A DNA stretch of 34,668 nucleotides from a virus. This document shows, piece by piece, positions 22,942 through 34,668 of the stretch. Under the pieces are notes generated by a model. It did not search any database and was not told the DNA's origin. It saw only the letters and a program-made list of their open reading frames with translations. The DNA is taken from IMG/VR virus record IMGVR_UViG_3300020404_000089, positions 1-34,668 of that record. One strand, given 5' to 3'. The translations under genes were made by a program, and so were the position numbers. Numbering within the stretch: position 1 is the stretch's first letter; every line of letters starts with the position of its first letter.

Positions 22942-23130
22942 TTATCTAGCCCTTGTTCTCCCGCCTTTACGCATCTTTTTGACGCTACCGCCACCTTTCA
23001 TACGCCGCATCTTTTTGATGCTACCGCCGCCTCGCATCTTTTTAAGGCTACCGCCACCCTTCATTTTTTTGATGCTACCGCCACCCTTCAAGCCGATACG
23101 CTTTTTCATTTTCTTTTTTGACCCTGCCAT
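22942..23130 (-). CDS. Highly basic micro-protein of KGGGSIKKM repeats, 62 aa
   Basis: Nearly the whole protein is Lys, Arg, Gly, Ser and Met. Four copies of (K/R)GGGS(I/L/V)KKM lie at residues 15-23, 24-32, 33-41 and 45-53, with a basic lead (MAGSKKKMKKR) and tail (RKGGRTRAR). There is almost no acidic residue, so the net charge is strongly positive. The start at 23130 has AGGAGA upstream and overlaps the end of the preceding gene by 25 bases. Flexible Gly-Ser linkers with KKM clamps would suit binding of nucleic acid or of an acidic surface. Small basic Gly-rich proteins are common in marine phages, but their role is not established to my knowledge. Confidence 0.65.
   Translation of the reverse strand: MAGSKKKMKKRIGLKGGGSIKKMKGGGSLKKMRGGGSIKKMRRMKGGGSVKKMRKGGRTRAR
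22972..23088 (-). repeat. Imperfect 27-base tandem repeats coding for KGGGSxKKM
   Basis: Three adjacent 27-base units and a fourth separated by an extra 9 bases (codons R-R-M) code for the four KGGGSxKKM copies. Units differ by a few bases, mostly synonymous or conservative, so the peptide is kept while the DNA drifts. Confidence 0.8.
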
Positions 23131-23666
23131 TTTAGTCTCCTGTAGTATTCCTGGCGTTGATGATAAGATGAAGAGCCACCGTAATATTCTTCACAAGTAT
23201 CGTAATAACCCTTCTCTCTGAGCTGATCTGAAGCCTCTTGTAGCTTTGTTAATCTTTGCAAAAAAACAATAGCATATGGCTCCTCATCAGTCATCTCTAT
23301 TTCATCGTCTAATAAGTCGTTGTCGTCAGACTCAGGATGAAATCCCATAAGAAACATATCTTTAGTGCTATGTTTACCCTTAGATATGCTTTCGTTCATG
23401 TTATCCAAAAACTCATAAAATTCATCAAATTCAAAAAAATCGTGATCTACTAAAATAATAACTTCCTTTGAATCATCCCACTCATCAATTGCTTTGTACA
23501 GCACCTTCCAGCTTTTTGTTTTCTTAAAAATAAAACCTACTTTGTTGTCTCTCCATGCTTTTTTAGCGTATGGACACACAGGTAAACCGTTATAATTATC
23601 ACTTGTTTGTTCAAGAACAGAAGCAGACCAGCGTTTTATTTCTTCAATCACTTCTTTTTCGTTCAT
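23106..23666 (-). CDS. Acidic protein with PVCPYAKKAW motif, 186 aa
   Basis: The product is acidic, in contrast to its neighbours. It has VIEEIKRWSASVLEQT, then NYNGLPVCPYAKKAWRDNKV, GFIFKKTKSWKVLYKAIDEW and EVIILVDHDFFEFDEFYEFL. Later it has GFHPESDDNDLLDDEIEMTD and a Tyr-rich end (CEEYYGGSSSYHQRQEYYRR). I recall the PVCPYAKKA motif in small proteins of marine phages and bacteria (similar in style to the DUF1415 LCPFAK motif), without an established function. A single Cys in a conserved loop could be redox-active or bind metal; this is inference. An acidic protein amid very basic ones could be a partner or inhibitor. Confidence 0.6.
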   Translation of the reverse strand: MNEKEVIEEIKRWSASVLEQTSDNYNGLPVCPYAKKAWRDNKVGFIFKKTKSWKVLYKAIDEWDDSKEVIILVDHDFFEFDEFYEFLDNMNESISKGKHSTKDMFLMGFHPESDDNDLLDDEIEMTDEEPYAIVFLQRLTKLQEASDQLREKGYYDTCEEYYGGSSSYHQRQEYYRRLKWQGQKRK

Positions 23667-23944
23667 TTTTTTGTTCTTCTACGAACAGATTTTACACGCC
23701 TTGGCTTGCCTGCTGGCTGCCCCAAACGTTTCTTTTGAGCAACACGAGAAGACTTTTCTTTTGAAGACATTTCTTTGGTTGTCTTCGGGGTTTTGGATGA
23801 TACCCGCTTTGACGGGCGACAATAAGGGACACCACGCTTTTCTCCTTTTTTACGGCCACATTTTTTGCCCGTGCGAACGTCTTTCCAGTCCTCTTTGAAC
23901 CATCGTTTAAGAGCCAGACCAGATTTTGTCTTTCTAACTGCCAT
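23663..23944 (-). CDS. Lys/Arg-rich protein (LKRWFKEDWKDVRTG family), 93 aa
   Basis: The N-terminal third has TKSGLALKRWFKEDWKDVRT, followed by GKKCGRKKGEKRGVPYCRPS with C29 and C42. The rest is a basic Ser/Thr/Lys tail (SSKTPKTTKEMSSKEKSSRV) ending VRRRTKK. I recall this LKxWFKExWxDxxTGKxCGRKK...YCRP pattern from small basic proteins of marine phages and of large algal viruses, where it is an uncharacterised domain (possibly DUF5872; name not certain). Paired cysteines could bind zinc. The tail resembles a histone tail in composition. DNA binding or condensation is likely from charge alone but untested. ATGA overlap with the next gene. Confidence 0.7.
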   Translation of the reverse strand: MAVRKTKSGLALKRWFKEDWKDVRTGKKCGRKKGEKRGVPYCRPSKRVSSKTPKTTKEMSSKEKSSRVAQKKRLGQPAGKPRRVKSVRRRTKK

Positions 23945-23965
23945 CAGGATTGCTCCACCGCGCCT

Positions 23966-24151
23966 TTAGTTCTTTTTCTTCGCCTCGGCAATACTTTGCC
24001 GCAACCTCTCGCTACCGCCGTGCCCTTGATATTTTTGCCGCGAAATTTCCGCTTCGGTTTGGACGGAGAGTTCATCATTAGAATGTCTTACCTTTGCGTT
24101 TAGTAGAGCGATTCTTTCTTTTAGTCTTCTTACTTTTTCCTCCAGTTCCAT
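23966..24151 (-). CDS. Short coiled-coil protein overlapping its neighbour, 61 aa
   Basis: Residues 1-30 form a clear heptad pattern (MELEEKVRRLKERIALLNAK). The C-terminal half is polar (SRQKYQGHGGSERL and SIAEAKKKN). The start ATG at 24151 is preceded by AGGAG about ten bases upstream, so it is likely translated. Its first 74 bases overlap the end of the 60-residue basic gene in another frame. Such an overlap is longer than the usual one to eight bases here. It could be a small assembly factor; function unknown. Confidence 0.55.
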   Translation of the reverse strand: MELEEKVRRLKERIALLNAKVRHSNDELSVQTEAEISRQKYQGHGGSERLRQSIAEAKKKN

Positions 24152-24260
24152 AATTCGCCGCTCCTACCTTTCGACATTTCGCAATGGCACCTGAAGCATA
24201 TGCACTTGGAAAAACCTTGTATCGAGCTTTTACTTTTTTATAACAAGCGTCTTTGGGCAT
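24078..24260 (-). CDS. Small basic protein (KVKARYKVFPSAYASGAIAK family), 60 aa
   Basis: Start chosen at ATG 24260, not the upstream in-frame ATG at 24326: AGAGGAG sits about six bases before the later ATG, just after the previous stop. The product has CYKKVKARYKVFPSAYASGA, then AKCRKVGAANYGTGG and a basic tail (KSKKTKRKNRSTKRKGKTF). C6 and C29 could pair or bind metal. The motif KVxxRYKVFPSAYASGAxxKCRKxG is one I recall in short proteins of pelagic phages and in giant viruses, without known function. This is one of three basic Cys-containing proteins within 1.2 kb. Confidence 0.7.
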   Translation of the reverse strand: MPKDACYKKVKARYKVFPSAYASGAIAKCRKVGAANYGTGGKSKKTKRKNRSTKRKGKTF

Positions 24261-24261
24261 T

Positions 24262-24537
24262 TTAGAACTCCTCTTTGATGGAGGTTTTGAAATTTGTTGT
24301 CGCATCGAACTGCGCGAGATTGCCATCGTATGTCCTCCCTGTGAAGTCCTCCCACATAGGTCTAATCATTTGATGAAGTTGATCTATTTTTTCATTATTA
24401 GCATCAATCTTCAATGCCATGACCGCTACATTTCTATCTACGGCAATAAGTGTTGTTGAAATCCATGTGAGACCAGTTACACATGCACCTATAAAAGCAA
24501 CAAAGATCGTTCCAGCTACAAAATTAGCACTTAACAT
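24262..24537 (-). CDS. Small membrane protein with C-terminal helix, 91 aa
   Basis: Start chosen at ATG 24537: GGAG lies six bases upstream, and the only longer option begins at a TTG. The N terminus is hydrophobic (VAGTIFVAFIGACVTGLTWI), a single membrane span near residues 7-27. The next part (AVMALKIDANNEKIDQLHQM) is a helix that could be a coiled coil. The end (PMWEDFTGRTYDGNLAQFD) is polar. The gene overlaps the end of the basic 95-residue gene by seven bases. Membrane attachment with a cytoplasmic coiled coil is the likely topology. Function unknown; a lysis or superinfection role is possible. Confidence 0.6.
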   Translation of the reverse strand: MLSANFVAGTIFVAFIGACVTGLTWISTTLIAVDRNVAVMALKIDANNEKIDQLHQMIRPMWEDFTGRTYDGNLAQFDATTNFKTSIKEEF

Positions 24538-24818
24538 TTCCATCTCCGCCGTGCAGCGCAAATACGTTTTTTGGGTGTTTTGCTACAATTAATATTGTGC
24601 ATCTTCATCTGGCCTTTTGAACGGCTACAGTATGATGCGCGACGTTTAGCTGCTTTTGACCCCTTCTTTACCTTACCAGTAACAGCGGTCTTTAACTTTG
24701 ACCCTGGGTTGGCGCGGCGGTACGCCGCCACACCAGCCTTGGTCATTCCCGCTCCAGACTTTGTGGAGCGGAAATTTTTCTTGTTACGCTTTGGCATTTT
24801 GGCTGGTTTTCTAGCCAT
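24531..24818 (-). CDS. Lys/Arg-rich protein with four cysteines, 95 aa
   Basis: Start chosen at ATG 24818, which overlaps the upstream TAA (TAATG); the longer reading would need a GTG inside the previous gene. The product is strongly basic: RKPAKMPKRNKKNFRSTKSG, then AGMTKAGVAAYRRANPGSKL, KTAVTGKVKKGSKAAKRRAS, with C64, C78, C87 and C95 in the last third (YCSRSKGQMKMHNINCSK and ICAARRRWKC). I recall GAGMTKAGVAxYRRxNPGSKLKTAVT as a conserved domain in small proteins of marine phages and giant viruses (possibly DUF6321; name not certain). The cysteines could form a zinc site. A nucleic-acid-binding role is suggested by charge only. Confidence 0.7.
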   Translation of the reverse strand: MARKPAKMPKRNKKNFRSTKSGAGMTKAGVAAYRRANPGSKLKTAVTGKVKKGSKAAKRRASYCSRSKGQMKMHNINCSKTPKKRICAARRRWKC

Positions 24819-25090
24819 TAGCCAAAGAATCCAGTAAGCGAATCCACGTTGGTAAGTGTCACATGACACTCACTATCGAAGATTATACCATGATCTGGAA
24901 TGGTGATTTGATTATCATCAGATGTGTGAAACACCATCGACAATAGAGTAGCACCGCTACTGCCGTTTTTAAACACCACCGCAGGTGACCCGCTAGAAGC
25001 TGTCTTTACATAGAACGCTTTTAAACGAGTTCTACCACCCAGCACTGTTCCGCTAGCTGTAACTGTTTTTGCTGTGATAGAAGCAGCCAT
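24818..25090 (-). CDS. Small beta-rich virion accessory protein, 90 aa
   Basis: The protein consists of alternating strands: TAKTVTASGTVLGGRTRLKA, FYVKTASSGSPAVVFKNGSS, LLSMVFHTSDDNQITIPDHG and ECHVTLTNVDSLTGFFG. It is a single beta-sandwich by pattern and resembles the 111-residue protein at 18611-18946. Proteins of this style occur near capsid or tail genes of marine phages. Its place one gene after the coat suggests a capsid decoration or tail surface protein. Confident as a gene, not as a function. Confidence 0.6.
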   Translation of the reverse strand: MAASITAKTVTASGTVLGGRTRLKAFYVKTASSGSPAVVFKNGSSGATLLSMVFHTSDDNQITIPDHGIIFDSECHVTLTNVDSLTGFFG

Positions 25091-25102: not shown

Positions 25103-25564
25103 TTAAGCAAGGTTGTTATTTTGCTGGTACAGAATTGTAAAACGAACAAGACCTGCGTTTGTGGCAGCAGAAGCAGTCACAGTCAAACGAATGTCTGCTG
25201 TACCAGTGTCCTGCCAAGCTAATGCAGCGCCAGCCTGAGTTGTTGGGTACTTACGTCCAGCAGATGTGCCGCTTGCAAATGTGTTCAGAATTGTAGCTGC
25301 ACCGCCTACTGTGTCTCCAACACTAAGATTGGTAGAAGCGTTAGCTGCGGTGATAACGTCAATCACACAGTCAATAATCTGAGAGTTTGCAGGAATAACA
25401 ACATCAGTGACTTGAGCAGCTAGAGCACCGCCTGATAAGTCTGCTGAAAATGTCTGAGCCATAACAACTTGACCAACGTTAGCAATGTTTGAGCCTAAAG
25501 TCGTGCCTGTTGTGTTCTTGATAGTTCCGGCCTTAATAGGACCAGAGAAAGTAGTAGTAGCCAT
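25103..25564 (-). CDS. Ala/Thr-rich capsid decoration-type protein, 153 aa
   Basis: The N terminus (TTTFSGPIKAGTIKNTTGTT) is followed by a beta-rich body: VGQVVMAQTFSADLSGGALA, VTDVVIPANSQIIDCVIDVI and STNLSVGDTVGGAATILNTF. The C terminus (ADIRLTVTASAATNAGLVRF) completes a sandwich. Genes of this type often follow the coat gene in pelagic phages; a decoration or head-fibre role is the likely inference. It is the first gene after the tandem terminators, so its expression depends on read-through or a local promoter. AGGAGA lies upstream of the start. Confidence 0.65.
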   Translation of the reverse strand: MATTTFSGPIKAGTIKNTTGTTLGSNIANVGQVVMAQTFSADLSGGALAAQVTDVVIPANSQIIDCVIDVITAANASTNLSVGDTVGGAATILNTFASGTSAGRKYPTTQAGAALAWQDTGTADIRLTVTASAATNAGLVRFTILYQQNNNLA

Positions 25565-25773: not shown

Positions 25774-26685
25774 TTATGCACCAGGTGAACCGAATACACA
25801 ACGAGGATCGGAGAAGCCGAAGCTGTAACGCTCACGAGCCTTGAAGCGCATGTTACCTGTGTCAAAGTCTGCTTCCATCTGTGTTGACAGTGGAACACGC
25901 TCAAAGTGGAGGAATCCACGAGGAGCATCTGTCAACAGGAAGAATGCATCCGTATCAGTAAGGAAGTCGTTAACGGCATAACCGTCAGGCAACATACCCA
26001 TTGAACGAAGTGCATTGACATCATTGTCAGCAGTACCCACACGAAGATTTGAAACCATCAGACGCTCGGCAACAAACTGTAGTTGACGAGGAACAACAAG
26101 TTTCATTCCGCGTAGAGCAACCTTCAAACCACGCTCATCAACAAAACCAGCAATGCTAATCAGAGCGTCCTCAAGAGAGGTTTCGTTCAAATCAGCGGCA
26201 GTGCTTGGCTCGTTGTTGAATGTGTTACCATTTGTCAATGGGTGAGATGCATCACACAATGCAACTCCGTCACCACCAGCAAACGCACCAGCCGAGAATG
26301 CATTGTTTAGAATGCTGGCTGCTTTGACCTGCTTGGTATGTGCCATTGAACGGGCAAGAGCACGAGTGTAGCGGCTTGAAAGACGATCATAAAGATTGTC
26401 CTCGACTGCTTCTTCGGTAATGCTAAATGCCAAGGCAATGGTTTCATGGTTGTACCGAGCGGTAAATGCTTCGTTGGCATCATCAAAACTGATAGCAGAA
26501 CCCTCATCCTTAGTGGGAGCAGCTCCAAAGCCAGAAAGCATTACCTCTTCTTCAAATGCACGATCTGAAGACTCGGTGGTGAAAATTTCGGCGTGCTGGT
26601 TTTCATACCTGTCATACTCCATTCCAAATAGAGCATTTAGGCCAGGCTCCAGCTCTTTCGCCAGTTGTGCGCGAGAAATAGCCAT
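25774..26685 (-). CDS. Major capsid protein, 303 aa
   Basis: The N terminus reads SRAQLAKELEPGLNALFGME, then YDRYENQHAEIFTTESSDRA. It has EEVMLSGFGAAPTKDEGSAI followed by SFDDANEAFTARYNHETIAL, then SITEEAVEDNLYDRLSSRYT and ARSMAHTKQVKAASILNNAF. Near the C terminus is DTDAFFLLTDAPRGFLHFER and RERYSFGFSDPRCVFGSPGA. This is the pattern of a HK97-fold coat protein of the Mu gpT-like type found in marine phages. It sits after the scaffold and is followed by strong terminators, consistent with high expression. No protease gene is visible here, so maturation cleavage is unclear. SD: AGGAGG before the ATG. Confidence 0.85.
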   Translation of the reverse strand: MAISRAQLAKELEPGLNALFGMEYDRYENQHAEIFTTESSDRAFEEEVMLSGFGAAPTKDEGSAISFDDANEAFTARYNHETIALAFSITEEAVEDNLYDRLSSRYTRALARSMAHTKQVKAASILNNAFSAGAFAGGDGVALCDASHPLTNGNTFNNEPSTAADLNETSLEDALISIAGFVDERGLKVALRGMKLVVPRQLQFVAERLMVSNLRVGTADNDVNALRSMGMLPDGYAVNDFLTDTDAFFLLTDAPRGFLHFERVPLSTQMEADFDTGNMRFKARERYSFGFSDPRCVFGSPGA

Positions 26686-27834: not shown

Positions 27835-28743
27835 TTAGTCCTTTACATACTTAGCGTATTCTTCAAGAGGAACACCAAGTTTCTTAGCCATTGCTACTTG
27901 TGACGGTGTCAACTTGACGGTCCTGCGCCCCTGTTTTGAACTGCGGGAAGCGGAAGTATCAGCCGAGGCGACCCTTGTACTTCCTCCGGTTTGTTTTCCC
28001 CCCATCTCATTTGGAAAACGAGATTTTAAACGGGAATCCAACTCATCATAATACTCTTCGCCCTCTGGGTCAAACCCTTCTTCGGTCACAAGTTTATTAT
28101 GAATAACAAAAGCAGCTTGAGTCATTATCTCATCTTCACCAAACCACTCATTCTTTTCAGCCCACTTCTGCGCTTTAGGATCGGGCTTTGATGCGGGTTG
28201 AGCCTGTTGTTGCGGTACAGGTTGAGCCTCCTGCTGTGGCACAGGTTGCTGTTCCTGTCGCTGTTTTGCTAATCTGAAACGTTCTTGTTCTATGGAAATT
28301 TTAGATAAAGCCTGTTGAGCGTCAAACATCGCATCAACGTCACCTCGATCATGAGCTTCACGATAAGCTCTTTTTGCTGTGTCTAGTTGAGAATCAATGC
28401 GAGTGCCGTATTCGCTCAAGTATCCTTGGTCTAGATTTGTTAGACGAGACTTTAAATCCTCGTTCTCTTTTTTAAGAACATCTGCGATACGGGCAGCTTC
28501 TTCTTTATCTCTCTCCGCATAGCGATACTTTTCAGTAAGTTTTTTAATCCGCTTCTGGACACCTTTACTGTAGTTGTCCAGTTCCTCTCCCTCTGCGTCT
28601 TCTTTAACGGTGACTTTTGGCTTATCGTCAAGCTCTAAGTCCTGCTGAACAGGTTCCTTTTCAGCAGACTCGTCAATTGTAACTTCTACATTTTCTTCAA
28701 CAACTTGTGCTTCAGCCTCTGCCACTACCGCCTCCTTAGACAT
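27835..28743 (-). CDS. Scaffolding protein candidate, 302 aa
   Basis: The N terminus is very acidic (VVEENVEVTIDESAEKEPVQ). From about 55 to 160 it is a long coiled coil (GVQKRIKKLTEKYRYAERDK, ENEDLKSRLTNL). A QPVPQQEAQPVPQQQAQP linker follows, then a helical part with WFGEDEIMTQAAFVIHNKLV. The C-terminal ~30 residues are basic (QGRRTVKLTPSQVAMAKKLG and LEEYAKYVKD). Acidic/helical with a basic C-terminal helix is the pattern of phage scaffolds, whose C terminus binds the coat. It overlaps the GroES gene by eight bases. The coat gene follows two genes later. Confidence 0.75.
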   Translation of the reverse strand: MSKEAVVAEAEAQVVEENVEVTIDESAEKEPVQQDLELDDKPKVTVKEDAEGEELDNYSKGVQKRIKKLTEKYRYAERDKEEAARIADVLKKENEDLKSRLTNLDQGYLSEYGTRIDSQLDTAKRAYREAHDRGDVDAMFDAQQALSKISIEQERFRLAKQRQEQQPVPQQEAQPVPQQQAQPASKPDPKAQKWAEKNEWFGEDEIMTQAAFVIHNKLVTEEGFDPEGEEYYDELDSRLKSRFPNEMGGKQTGGSTRVASADTSASRSSKQGRRTVKLTPSQVAMAKKLGVPLEEYAKYVKD

Positions 28744-29203
28744 GTTTCACATCATCTGGTTCAAGGATCGTAGCAATGACCTCATCGTCATTGATAATGC
28801 GAACCTCACCGCCATCAATTTTAAACCTGGACCCTGCATATCTGCCAATGCACACCCACTGACCCTCTTCACACCAAGGTTCAGGACTGTCACCAAATTT
28901 GTTAGGGTCTTGATACGCCAAAGGCCCTAGCTTTAAAACATAGGCCACCACAGTGGCTAATGCTTCACGCTCTCGTGCCTCATTGGGAATTATGATGCCG
29001 CCCTCTGTCTTCGTCTTACCTTGATAAGGCATGACAAGTATCCTCCAACCAGTTGGTTGAGGCAGGCGTTCTTTTAAAGATTTGTCTACTAAACTGGGGT
29101 CTAAAACTCGTTTTTCAGCCTCTACATAAGCGCCTTCTGTTGATACAGGTTCTTTTGCTTTAGACTTTGCGATATGGTCAGGAACGTATAATGTCTTCGC
29201 CAT
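28736..29203 (-). CDS. GroES-like co-chaperonin, 155 aa
   Basis: Residues ~50-150 have the Cpn10 fold pattern: PTGWRILVMPYQGKTKTEGG with IIIPNEAREREALATVVAYV (strand, mobile loop, strand), then LGPLAYQDP, WCEEGQWVCIGRYAGSRFKI and VRIINDDEVIATILEP. A ~45-residue N-terminal extension (PDHIAKSKAKEPVSTEGAYV) is absent from host GroES. It probably works with host GroEL to fold the coat protein, as T4 gp31 does. The loop TKTEGGIIIP holds the region that contacts GroEL. It stands immediately before the scaffold gene, and the start overlaps the previous gene by 26 bases. Confidence 0.85.
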   Translation of the reverse strand: MAKTLYVPDHIAKSKAKEPVSTEGAYVEAEKRVLDPSLVDKSLKERLPQPTGWRILVMPYQGKTKTEGGIIIPNEAREREALATVVAYVLKLGPLAYQDPNKFGDSPEPWCEEGQWVCIGRYAGSRFKIDGGEVRIINDDEVIATILEPDDVKHV

Positions 29204-29397: not shown

Positions 29398-29706
29398 TTA
29401 AAATGTCCCTGCGAACTTTTTACCTCTTACAACGGCACCACAACCTCGGCTCATATTAGGTGCATCTACGCTCATTCCCTTGCTAAAACCTTTTACACCA
29501 CGACCTTTTAAAATGTCTTTTTGTGTAACTTTTCCATCACCTGTCAAATCAGGAAAACTAGTCATACCGCCGCCTACAAAAGTTTTAACATCATCATCAG
29601 AATCGTTGCCTCTTTCTTTAAAAAGATCAGACTCGGCAAGCTCTTTAGCATCTTCACTACCAAACTTTTCAAGTTCTTCTAATTCAATAATTCTTGGATC
29701 AGTCAT
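29398..29706 (-). CDS. Protein with dockerin-like calcium loop and RGCGAVVRGKKF tail, 102 aa
   Basis: The N-terminal half is acidic (IIELEELEKFGSEDAKELAE). Residues 53-64 (DLTGDGKVTQKD) match an EF-hand or dockerin calcium loop, with D53, T55, D57 and D64 as candidate ligands. The C terminus (MSRGCGAVVRGKKFAGTF) is basic and ends in a motif I recall from many small marine phage proteins. The combination of an acidic part, a calcium loop and a basic tail suggests a virion or assembly protein rather than an enzyme. A second EF-hand-like loop lies at 31343-31663. Confidence 0.6.
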   Translation of the reverse strand: MTDPRIIELEELEKFGSEDAKELAESDLFKERGNDSDDDVKTFVGGGMTSFPDLTGDGKVTQKDILKGRGVKGFSKGMSVDAPNMSRGCGAVVRGKKFAGTF

Positions 29707-32179: not shown

Positions 32180-34654
32180 TTACTTGGAGCGCAGTGCCAG
32201 GTCCCTCTGGGTCTGGATGCGCTCACGATTCACATCTGCCCTTTCTTCTGCGATCTCTTCTTGGAGTTCGATCCGTGCTGCGTCAGTCATTGCTCGTTGC
32301 TGGACCTTCTGACGTTCTAGGTCTAATTCTGCGGCATCCTGTTGTGCCCTGCGCTGAGACTCAGCGGCCTTAATTGCAAGCTCCTGCTGTCTTATCTGCA
32401 CGAGCGGATCTTGCTGTCCCTCTGGTGGTGCAAGCATCTGTATGATTTCCTGAGTAAACTGAGCCTCTAGTTTTGCAACCTCGGACTCTATAACCTCCTC
32501 AGACATTGCAGATGCCGCTTGCATTTGTTGTTGTGCCATCATGGGATCCATCGCACCCATTTGTGCTGCTAACGCCGCTTGCTGTGCCTGCGCCTGCTGT
32601 TGCTGTACTTGTGCCATAACAGTCAAGCGTGCCTTCATAGATATATGATCCTGAAGATGCCCCATAAATGTAGCATAAATGTTGGGTGATGTAGAGACCA
32701 AAGGCAGCTTCATAAATGTCACATGCGTCATAATATGAGCGTCATGGTCTTGCTGTTGAAACGCCGTCAACAGTTCTCCTTGCATGCCTTTTGCGTTCTC
32801 GATGCTCGGACTCGTGGGCTGTGGCTCTTTCTTAGCAGGCAGTATCTGATCAATGTTCTGAACCTCCAACGCCTGATACATGCGCTTGTATGCCTCATGC
32901 AGGTTATGGATGTTGGGGTTGGATTGCGCCAGTTGAAGCTGTGTTTGCGCTAATGTCACACGCTGTGCCATTGAAAAGATGTTAGGGTCAGAAACAGGTA
33001 TAACATCTACCCGTCCATCAAAGTCCTGCGCTTTCACCTCGGAAGGTGCTCCGGCTACCTCATACGGATATGTTGAAGGGAGATTCTCCGCGAATATTCT
33101 GGCGAGGAGCCGGAACTCTGTTTTCTGTGCGTAATGTAAACGCTTATGAATAGCCGACATGACCTTCATACCGCGTTCTAATAACGCTACAGTTGTACCT
33201 ACAGGCATATCTCCGCTTTTGCTCTCTCCAATCTGCTGATCGGCGATAGAGACAAAACGGCGACCACCTTCAATAAGTGACGCTAAGAGCTGTGCTAGAG
33301 TGCCGGATGGTTCTTTGTACGGCAAAGGTATGATTGAGTTACGAATGTCACCACCAGGGGCATCTATGTCTCTGAACTCACCAGGTGCTAATGGTTCGTC
33401 TTCGTTACGCACGCGAATGCCGCGTGCCTTAAAACCTGACGGCAAATTAGCAAGCGTACCAGAATCTATAAGCTGACGTAATATACTGGTGGTTGCTCGA
33501 CCCAAGCCACCAATCATGTGTATCAAACCATACCCATAAAAGCCCAGACCAGGTAGGAACTTGTAATGCACAAAATACTGCCGTTTGCGCTTCAGCGGGT
33601 CTTGTTGGTCGTAATTACGGGTTATGGACAGGATTTCACCAGATCCAACGTCTAACGTCACTATATATGGTAATTTGATGCCTGTGAAATTACCTTCTTG
33701 ATCTACGTCCTCAAAACCCTCCAGATCCATCTCGATATGTATCTCAAGGATCGTGTGCACCTCGTCCAGATAACCCTTACTGACACCATCTATCTCATCT
33801 ACCTTGTCACGAACGTTGTCATCAGTTTCTTGATTTGTAGATACCTCTACATCACGATAAATGCCTGCAACCTGCATTTTACGGACTTGATTCTCATCCA
33901 TACGCAATACATGCGTAACTCTTGAAGCTGTTGTCAGATCCGTAGCAGAATACGGCACTACCAGATCCTCTGACGGCACAAACGCCGATACAGCGCGGTT
34001 TCTGGTGGGATCAAAGTAAACTTTCTTAAAAGTAGAGCCTGACAGCGGTAGATAAAACAGCATCTGATCCGTATCAGGGTCAAACTCCTCCATGACCTCA
34101 GTAACCTGATAGTTCATGAAGTTCTTGACTCTAGCTGCCTGCGCTTCCTTTTCGGCGGTTCTTGCGCCTATAACCTGTGTTTTTACAGGTCCACCAGCAG
34201 GCAGAAGCTCTTTGTACGCTTGTGCTTGAAACTGTGTTACGGACTCGGCAATCAGAGGATGTGTTACGCCGGATGCACCATCAAACGGCTGATTACGCTC
34301 CTGATACTTGATACCAAGAAGATCCAACCCCTTGGTGTATGCCTGTTGCCAGTCCTCACGAGATTCAGTGTCTTCTTCGTACATCTCACGAAGTTCACTA
34401 GATATCTCGCCTAAAACCGCCTCATCTATGATCTCAGCCAAGTTAGCGTTGTGATCATACTGTTCTGTCTGTACTTCCACGCCCTCTGGCTCACCGCCCA
34501 TCAATGCCTGAACGATGGCACTTCCGTCCGCACCCTGCATAACCTCTGCACCGCCAGCAAAGTCCTCGGCCTGTGGCACTTCTACCATCATGCCCTCTAC
34601 TGCTTCGATGCCGGAATCCGTCAAACTTCCTGTGGGTCGTGGAGGTAGTGCCAT
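32180..34654 (-). CDS. Portal protein, 824 aa
   Basis: The protein has a low-complexity N terminus (~60 residues). The portal core follows: REDWQQAYTKGLDLLGIKYQ, QPFDGASGVTHPLIAESVTQ, FQAQAYKELLPAGGPVKTQV and YLPLSGSTFKKVYFDPTRNR. It has SEDLVVPYSATDLTTASRVT and GYGLIHMIGGLGRATTSILR, typical of P22-like portals. The C terminus after about 660 is a Gln/Ala/Glu-rich coiled coil (QQQAQAQQAALAAQMGAMDP), which may form the barrel. It should form a dodecameric ring at one capsid vertex. The start overlaps a TAA (TAATG), so another gene ends just upstream. Confidence 0.85.
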   Translation of the reverse strand: MALPPRPTGSLTDSGIEAVEGMMVEVPQAEDFAGGAEVMQGADGSAIVQALMGGEPEGVEVQTEQYDHNANLAEIIDEAVLGEISSELREMYEEDTESREDWQQAYTKGLDLLGIKYQERNQPFDGASGVTHPLIAESVTQFQAQAYKELLPAGGPVKTQVIGARTAEKEAQAARVKNFMNYQVTEVMEEFDPDTDQMLFYLPLSGSTFKKVYFDPTRNRAVSAFVPSEDLVVPYSATDLTTASRVTHVLRMDENQVRKMQVAGIYRDVEVSTNQETDDNVRDKVDEIDGVSKGYLDEVHTILEIHIEMDLEGFEDVDQEGNFTGIKLPYIVTLDVGSGEILSITRNYDQQDPLKRKRQYFVHYKFLPGLGFYGYGLIHMIGGLGRATTSILRQLIDSGTLANLPSGFKARGIRVRNEDEPLAPGEFRDIDAPGGDIRNSIIPLPYKEPSGTLAQLLASLIEGGRRFVSIADQQIGESKSGDMPVGTTVALLERGMKVMSAIHKRLHYAQKTEFRLLARIFAENLPSTYPYEVAGAPSEVKAQDFDGRVDVIPVSDPNIFSMAQRVTLAQTQLQLAQSNPNIHNLHEAYKRMYQALEVQNIDQILPAKKEPQPTSPSIENAKGMQGELLTAFQQQDHDAHIMTHVTFMKLPLVSTSPNIYATFMGHLQDHISMKARLTVMAQVQQQQAQAQQAALAAQMGAMDPMMAQQQMQAASAMSEEVIESEVAKLEAQFTQEIIQMLAPPEGQQDPLVQIRQQELAIKAAESQRRAQQDAAELDLERQKVQQRAMTDAARIELQEEIAEERADVNRERIQTQRDLALRSK

Positions 34655-34668
34655 TAGAACGTTCCTTT
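34654..34668 (-). CDS. Possible 3' end of an upstream gene
   Basis: The frame ending in the TAA that overlaps the portal ATG reads K-G-T-F-stop. Ending in GTF recalls the RGCGAVVRGKKFAGTF tail of the 102-residue protein, but four codons are too few to name it. The junction type matches the other coupled genes of the window. Confidence 0.3.
   Translation of the reverse strand, partial: KGTF

Follow-up and report, generated by a model that had tools for sequence, protein, structure and literature searches.

We propose that a block of small, very basic proteins encoded among the head genes of a virus, IMG/VR record IMGVR_UViG_3300020404_000089 (positions 1 to 34,668 of that record, all of which is hereafter called the window), forms a set of cationic mini-domains which is packaged in the virion, on or among the genome, and which works like the internal head proteins of phages. 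We put the probability of this reading at roughly one half. The small cationic domains, in three of which paired cysteines are conserved and would close as disulphides and not as zinc sites, would act as a co-working set; inside the virion head they would be packaged on or among the genome, and would probably exit the head together with it. Packaging is suggested by published virion data on fused relatives, location in the head by gene position and by the starts of neighbouring cyanophage genes, which resemble capsid-targeting sequences, and contact with DNA by charge. The block comprises the following genes:

24531-24818, minus strand: P1, 95 amino acids, DUF6321 (PF19846), net charge +32, four Cys, WKC end
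24262-24543, minus strand: P7, 93 amino acids, one hydrophobic segment, recurring neighbour of P1
24078-24326, minus strand: P2, 82 amino acids, VFPSAYASG module, two Cys, net charge +25
23944-24078, minus strand: P5, 44 amino acids, RGCG module, net charge +14
23663-23944, minus strand: P3, 93 amino acids, C-terminal half of DUF5872 (PF19197), net charge +30, two Cys
23106-23666, minus strand: P8, 186 amino acids, DUF1415-like, mildly acidic (-12), optional member
22942-23130, minus strand: P4, 62 amino acids, (KKMxGGGS)n repeat, net charge +25, no Cys, optional member

Most gene junctions within the block touch or overlap. The net charge per residue of the basic proteins is +0.29 to +0.40, that of the other predicted window proteins outside the block is at most +0.07, and P1 to P5 together carry a net charge of +126. 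By calculation, each basic protein would yield just one to three peptides of 7-30 residues when fully cleaved with trypsin, and P4 would yield none. The internal proteins IPI, IPII and IPIII of coliphage T4 are likewise small and basic, are encoded with head functions and are packaged with the genome. The window proteins are alike in size, charge and head-gene context, and may be alike in packaging; they differ in being unrelated in sequence and in possessing paired-Cys modules instead.

Codon analysis gave median ratios of nonsynonymous to synonymous substitution rates (dN/dS) of 0.19 for P1, 0.26 for P2, 0.13 for P3, 0.25 for P4 and 0.14 for P8, all five being under purifying selection; the values for P7 and P5 were 0.59 and 0.14, respectively, the latter from three pairs only. 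This selection, together with matches above the curated Pfam cut-offs for two of the proteins and a gene order kept in many contigs, argues that the cluster is real and beyond chance. A high charge that appears to be kept under purifying selection supports the internal-protein reading. An earlier note, made from the letters alone, had listed four basic proteins at this site. All four are present on the minus strand at the positions given above, but the count was too low: P5 (FRGKNIKGTAVARGCGKVL) had been overlooked. What the note took for a protein of 60 residues is the end of the 82-residue P2 frame, read from an internal start at 24260. P2 has two in-frame starts (24255-24345), each preceded by its own Shine-Dalgarno-like sequence, and its first 22 residues recur in relatives as a conserved module, in some of them as a separate open reading frame (ORF). 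The acidic 186-residue protein that had been noted is P8, while the interleaved coiled coil is unconvincing: this 61-residue ORF (23966-24151, minus strand) lies wholly inside P2 and P5 in another frame, has a median dN/dS of 1.48 over 184 pairs, and is probably not a gene.

P1 matches DUF6321 at 48.2 bits (curated Pfam cut-off 28.5) and P3 matches DUF5872 at 55.9 bits (cut-off 27.5), over model positions 49-111 only. The first part of the latter model, from position 1 to 39-45, is matched by P2-type proteins (L006:6490-6675; L248:3487-3651, 39.8 bits), and weak DUF5872 matches occur in 29 of 57 P2 relatives; the window's own P2 has no Pfam match to DUF5872, its correspondence to the first half being recognised through these relatives. 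Since P2-type proteins match the start of the model and P3 the rest, Pfam DUF5872 reads as a P2-P3 fusion of which the window appears to hold the two halves, in one protein elsewhere, as neighbouring separate genes; no single window protein spans the full DUF5872 model (PSAYA half plus CGR half). P2 also matches portions of three longer families, phrog_727 (8e-18), 38880 and 3477, the first of which contains a DUF6321 stretch as well. P8 matches DUF1415 at 34.3 bits (Pfam cut-off 26) and phrog_28122; DUF1415 is otherwise a bacterial family without assigned function. The earlier note had linked the motifs to marine phages and large algal viruses. The families are indeed those of marine phages and, in the case of DUF5872, also of a large algal virus; this family is known from algal giant viruses such as CpV-BQ1 (BQ1_105; PMC12085832). 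More than 580 IMG/VR stretches were confirmed for each of the three queries among the matches listed. A megablast of positions 14000-34668 against phages gave no match.

To follow these modules through relatives we defined six motifs: A, DUF6321; B, PSAYA; C, W..W.D..CGR..C; D, RGCG; E, SRxSM..QI.KPP; and F, CW.GY..NCV. They occur alone or as B-D, C-D, E-B, E-B-D, E-D and F-C, and in T4-like cyanophages as C-B-F-A or C-F-B-A within one protein. In the P-SSM2 protein PSSM2_123, whose gene lies between gp15 and gp16, C, F, B and A are contained in 271 residues. Module C of the cyanophage fusions was identified by motif and by eye, without a Pfam match. Relatives in which the P5 module is fused to P2 or to P3 were tallied by motif counts. 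The cyanophage cluster concerned, T4-GC119 (P-SSM2 PSSM2_123, S-SM1 SSM1_115, S-SCSM1 gp029), has the same P3-like, P2 and DUF6321 modules, again beside head and packaging genes. In these proteins, however, linkers join the modules into a single polypeptide, which also includes a CW.GY..NCV module; the window encodes its modules in separate small genes and adds the RGCG and GGGS members. The fusion protein is matched by 487 phage records. A small open-access literature search returned nothing on DUF6321, a single listing for DUF5872, and no description of the modules, already known as DUFs, as one shuffling set or of their link to the virion. An RGCG tail like that of P5 (...KGMSVDAPNMSRGCGAVVRGKKFAGTF) also ends a 102-residue protein encoded upstream of GroES (29401-29706, minus strand), and similar tails were seen at L173:2165-2569 and L187:2660-3010; it may be a portable C-terminal tag.

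The predicted genes of the 34.7-kb stretch, a fragment from an uncultured phage, all lie on the minus strand, in the order portal, GroES, scaffold-like, major capsid, cement-like, a small gene, the basic block and an adaptor of SU10/Pam1 type:

32183-34666, minus strand: portal
28739-29203, minus strand: GroES
27835-28743, minus strand: scaffold-like protein
25774-26685, minus strand: major capsid protein (phrog_371 major head protein)
25103-25564, minus strand: cement-like protein, with a relative in DSL-LC04 annotated as cement protein
24818-25090, minus strand: small gene between the cement-like gene and P1
22276-22941, minus strand: adaptor protein (SU10_adaptor, PF24175; Pam1-type adaptor label in DSL-LC04)

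The block had been described as next to the coat gene; it is near, about 1 kb off, with the cement-like gene and one small gene between. The order of the block is kept in many contigs of the window's own clade. This synteny was not used as independent evidence, the capsid genes being equally syntenic, and linkage outside the clade is more telling. IMG/VR loci were collected separately by P1, P3 and P2. Among 80 P3 loci, P2 is present in 79 and P1 in 72. Where at least 3.5 kb beyond P1 was available (46 P1 loci), a P3-type module lies within 4 kb in 34, and both P2 and P3 types are present in 24; P1 is the freer member of the set. Relatives of P7, P8 and P4 were found in 97, 56 and 47 of 232 sequences analysed. 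The order P2-P3-P1 precedes GroES and scaffold genes in HTVC027P, phage 023Pt_psg01 and others, and roseophage CRP-7 has P1-P2-P3 adjoining terminase. A siphophage-like contig in a Prochlorococcus single-cell genome runs TerL, P2, P3, major tail protein, P1, portal, major capsid protein, with a matching contig in a SAR202 bin, and the T7-like P-SCSP1o has P1 alone between the major capsid protein and gp11. The set thus adjoins capsid, portal or terminase genes in phages that are unrelated to one another, namely podophages, a siphophage, a roseophage and T4-like cyanophages, moving together to other sites of the head region. The suggestion of the earlier note that the proteins are a system is upheld to this extent: they are a co-inherited, exchangeable set across marine contigs. 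Genome records of Prochlorococcus, Flavobacterium and Pelagibacteraceae, some of them single cells judging by their names, contain phage contigs with the set (L248, L252, L253 and L258), which is a hint of the hosts of these uncultured phages.

In several unrelated phages DUF6321 is adjoined by a small protein that has a single hydrophobic segment and whose tail is charged or coiled; this protein is a possible recurring partner of it:

window 24262-24543, minus strand: P7, beside P1
L004:5774-5962, L006:6241-6489 and L005:5805-5978: hydrophobic-segment neighbours of DUF6321

Cys64 and Cys95 are invariant across 53 diverse P1 sequences, of which 24 have both Cys78 and Cys87 and 29 have neither; none has only one of the two. 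Such gain and loss by pairs would fit two separate Cys pairs, closed as two disulphides, better than one zinc site, a metal also being compatible. P2 and P3 each retain two Cys. The AF2 model of P1 is confident (pLDDT 88, pTM 0.70), that of P3 middling (pLDDT 75, pTM 0.59). Foldseek with both models against PDB gave nothing usable, and VIA-align of the P1 model against PDB gave a best Z of 2.4 and no clear match; searching the solved structures by sequence with P1, P2 and P3 gave no match either. Among viral models the P1 fold clearly matches DUF6321 proteins only, the S-SCSM1 virion protein being one of them. A domain whose fold is predicted with confidence, with a near-invariant Trp-x-Cys C-terminus (exact in 199 of 205 DUF6321 ORFs), encoded between cement and adaptor genes, could also be that of a minor structural protein of the shell, portal or neck, a capsid/adaptor glue that is not bound to DNA; virion detection leaves a protein's position unspecified. 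The capsid, portal and adaptor families that accompany the block are unrelated, however, and the tails are of several types, such that a single shell partner is hard to imagine; the charge, too, is very high. We consider this explanation rather improbable.

Fused relatives have been recovered from virions in two cyanophages. ORF137 of S-CREM2 (nucleotides 108049-109521) yielded four unique peptides, or 4.1% coverage, from CsCl-purified virions (PMC10665884 Table 3), and by its coordinates is identical to WNL51056.1, the C-terminus of which is DUF6321. The adjoining ORF136, with eight peptides in the virion proteome (PMC10665884), is basic (+23) and begins MQTFSMFFSE, resembling the T4 capsid-targeting sequence. 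The S-SCSM1 record labels gp029, which has modules C, B, F and A, as a "virion protein". Mass spectrometry identified 45 virion proteins of this phage, of which 13 were of unknown function (PMC9602691), and the record has 47 such labels, 14 of them on otherwise unnamed proteins. As these numbers fit closely, the label very probably reports mass-spectrometry detection, with one or two labels perhaps excepted. The earlier note had staked its idea of a packaged nucleoprotein on virion presence, nucleic-acid binding and co-occurrence; fused relatives are present in purified cyanophage virions, and the modules co-occur. On this analysis, the basic proteins of the window are probably packaged with the viral DNA.

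Several observations weigh against the internal-protein reading. The virion data come from fused relatives, and not from this phage or from separate modules; S-CREM2 ORF137 has a net negative charge (-20), and only 4.1% of it is covered by peptides; and the S-SM1 homologue is labelled only "hypothetical" (by record labels) though 41 virion proteins were detected there. DNA binding is argued from charge alone, and the analysis turned up no domain or fold known to bind DNA. Finally, DUF6321 is also encoded away from head genes (L002:5965-6246 and L010:4947-5210): in HTVC010P it lies near a peptidase M15, and in Microcystis phage Ma-LMM01 it stands among replication genes. These last placements would suit late cytoplasmic factors which bind nucleic acid or ribosomes and are merely carried along by virions, as would a size and composition like those of ribosomal proteins and weak, non-significant matches to ribosomal L24 and L37ae. 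With fusion relatives in two virion proteomes and repeated linkage to head and packaging genes standing against it, such a role appears very unlikely.

Cyanophage genes beside the fusion protein start with MKTFKQFMSES, MKSYNEFISES, MKTYQEL or MQTFSMFFSE, all like the capsid-targeting sequence; by inspection, a sequence of this kind (MKTYQEFIAE type) is absent from P1-P5.

L237:5362-5682, L232:4480-4806, L233:2548-2874, L009:3050-3751 and L261:1996-2709: cyanophage genes with such starts

The starts of these neighbours would also suit effectors that are packaged, injected with the DNA and act on the host like T4 IPI, the charge merely aiding packaging. Host-directed proteins are typically variable in membership and shuffled, with partners that are optional, as is the case here, but the cores are strongly conserved across phages of very different hosts, unlike host-specific effectors, and no known effector domain is present, so that we judge this unlikely.

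The strong form of the earlier note's proposal was a phage nucleoid, in which the genome, while it is being packaged or afterwards, is condensed by the set and has its charge neutralised. With 100-400 copies of each protein (assumed), the total of +126 would offset about 10-40% of the phosphates of a 60-kb genome, the arithmetic being based on relatives' genomes of 57.6-61.5 kb. There are precedents: ascovirus P64, one large protein with 2-Cys adaptor motifs and Arg/Ser repeats, has been demonstrated to condense DNA (PMC6163548), and PBCV-1 packages basic DNA-bound proteins (PMC3281028). P64 and the chlorella virus proteins A278L and A282L resemble the window proteins in being virion proteins in which a high positive charge goes together with short Cys or basic adaptor modules (PMC6163548, PMC3281028). 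They belong to eukaryotic viruses, unlike the window phage, and no Pfam match to the ascovirus or chlorella 2-Cys or basic adaptor domains was found in P1-P5 or in the 57 P2 relatives. Moreover, there is no evidence that basic proteins much neutralise phage DNA, the dense packing of which leaves scant room (PMC3281028); the modules, except P4, are domains that fold and are specifically conserved, unlike simple protamine-like tails; and most phages with related capsids do without some members. Phages are not known to depend on proteins for neutralising the charge of their DNA, and we hold a true nucleoid to be doubtful.

The set might further be a phage counterpart of viral chromatin, in which exchangeable, Cys-closed cationic mini-domains are loaded onto the genome in the head either as separate proteins or as one multi-domain protein; this is a speculation which we hold to be doubtful at best. 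That such a kit would be common to podo-, sipho- and myophages and, through DUF5872, to large algal viruses is put forward just as tentatively. The families concerned are common "unknowns" of marine viruses. Treating DUF5872 and DUF6321 as one interchangeable set, with fused members in virions, brings several orphan families together under a single testable question, namely whether dedicated cationic proteins sit on the packaged genomes of marine phages, as against the usual view of a motor and small cations.

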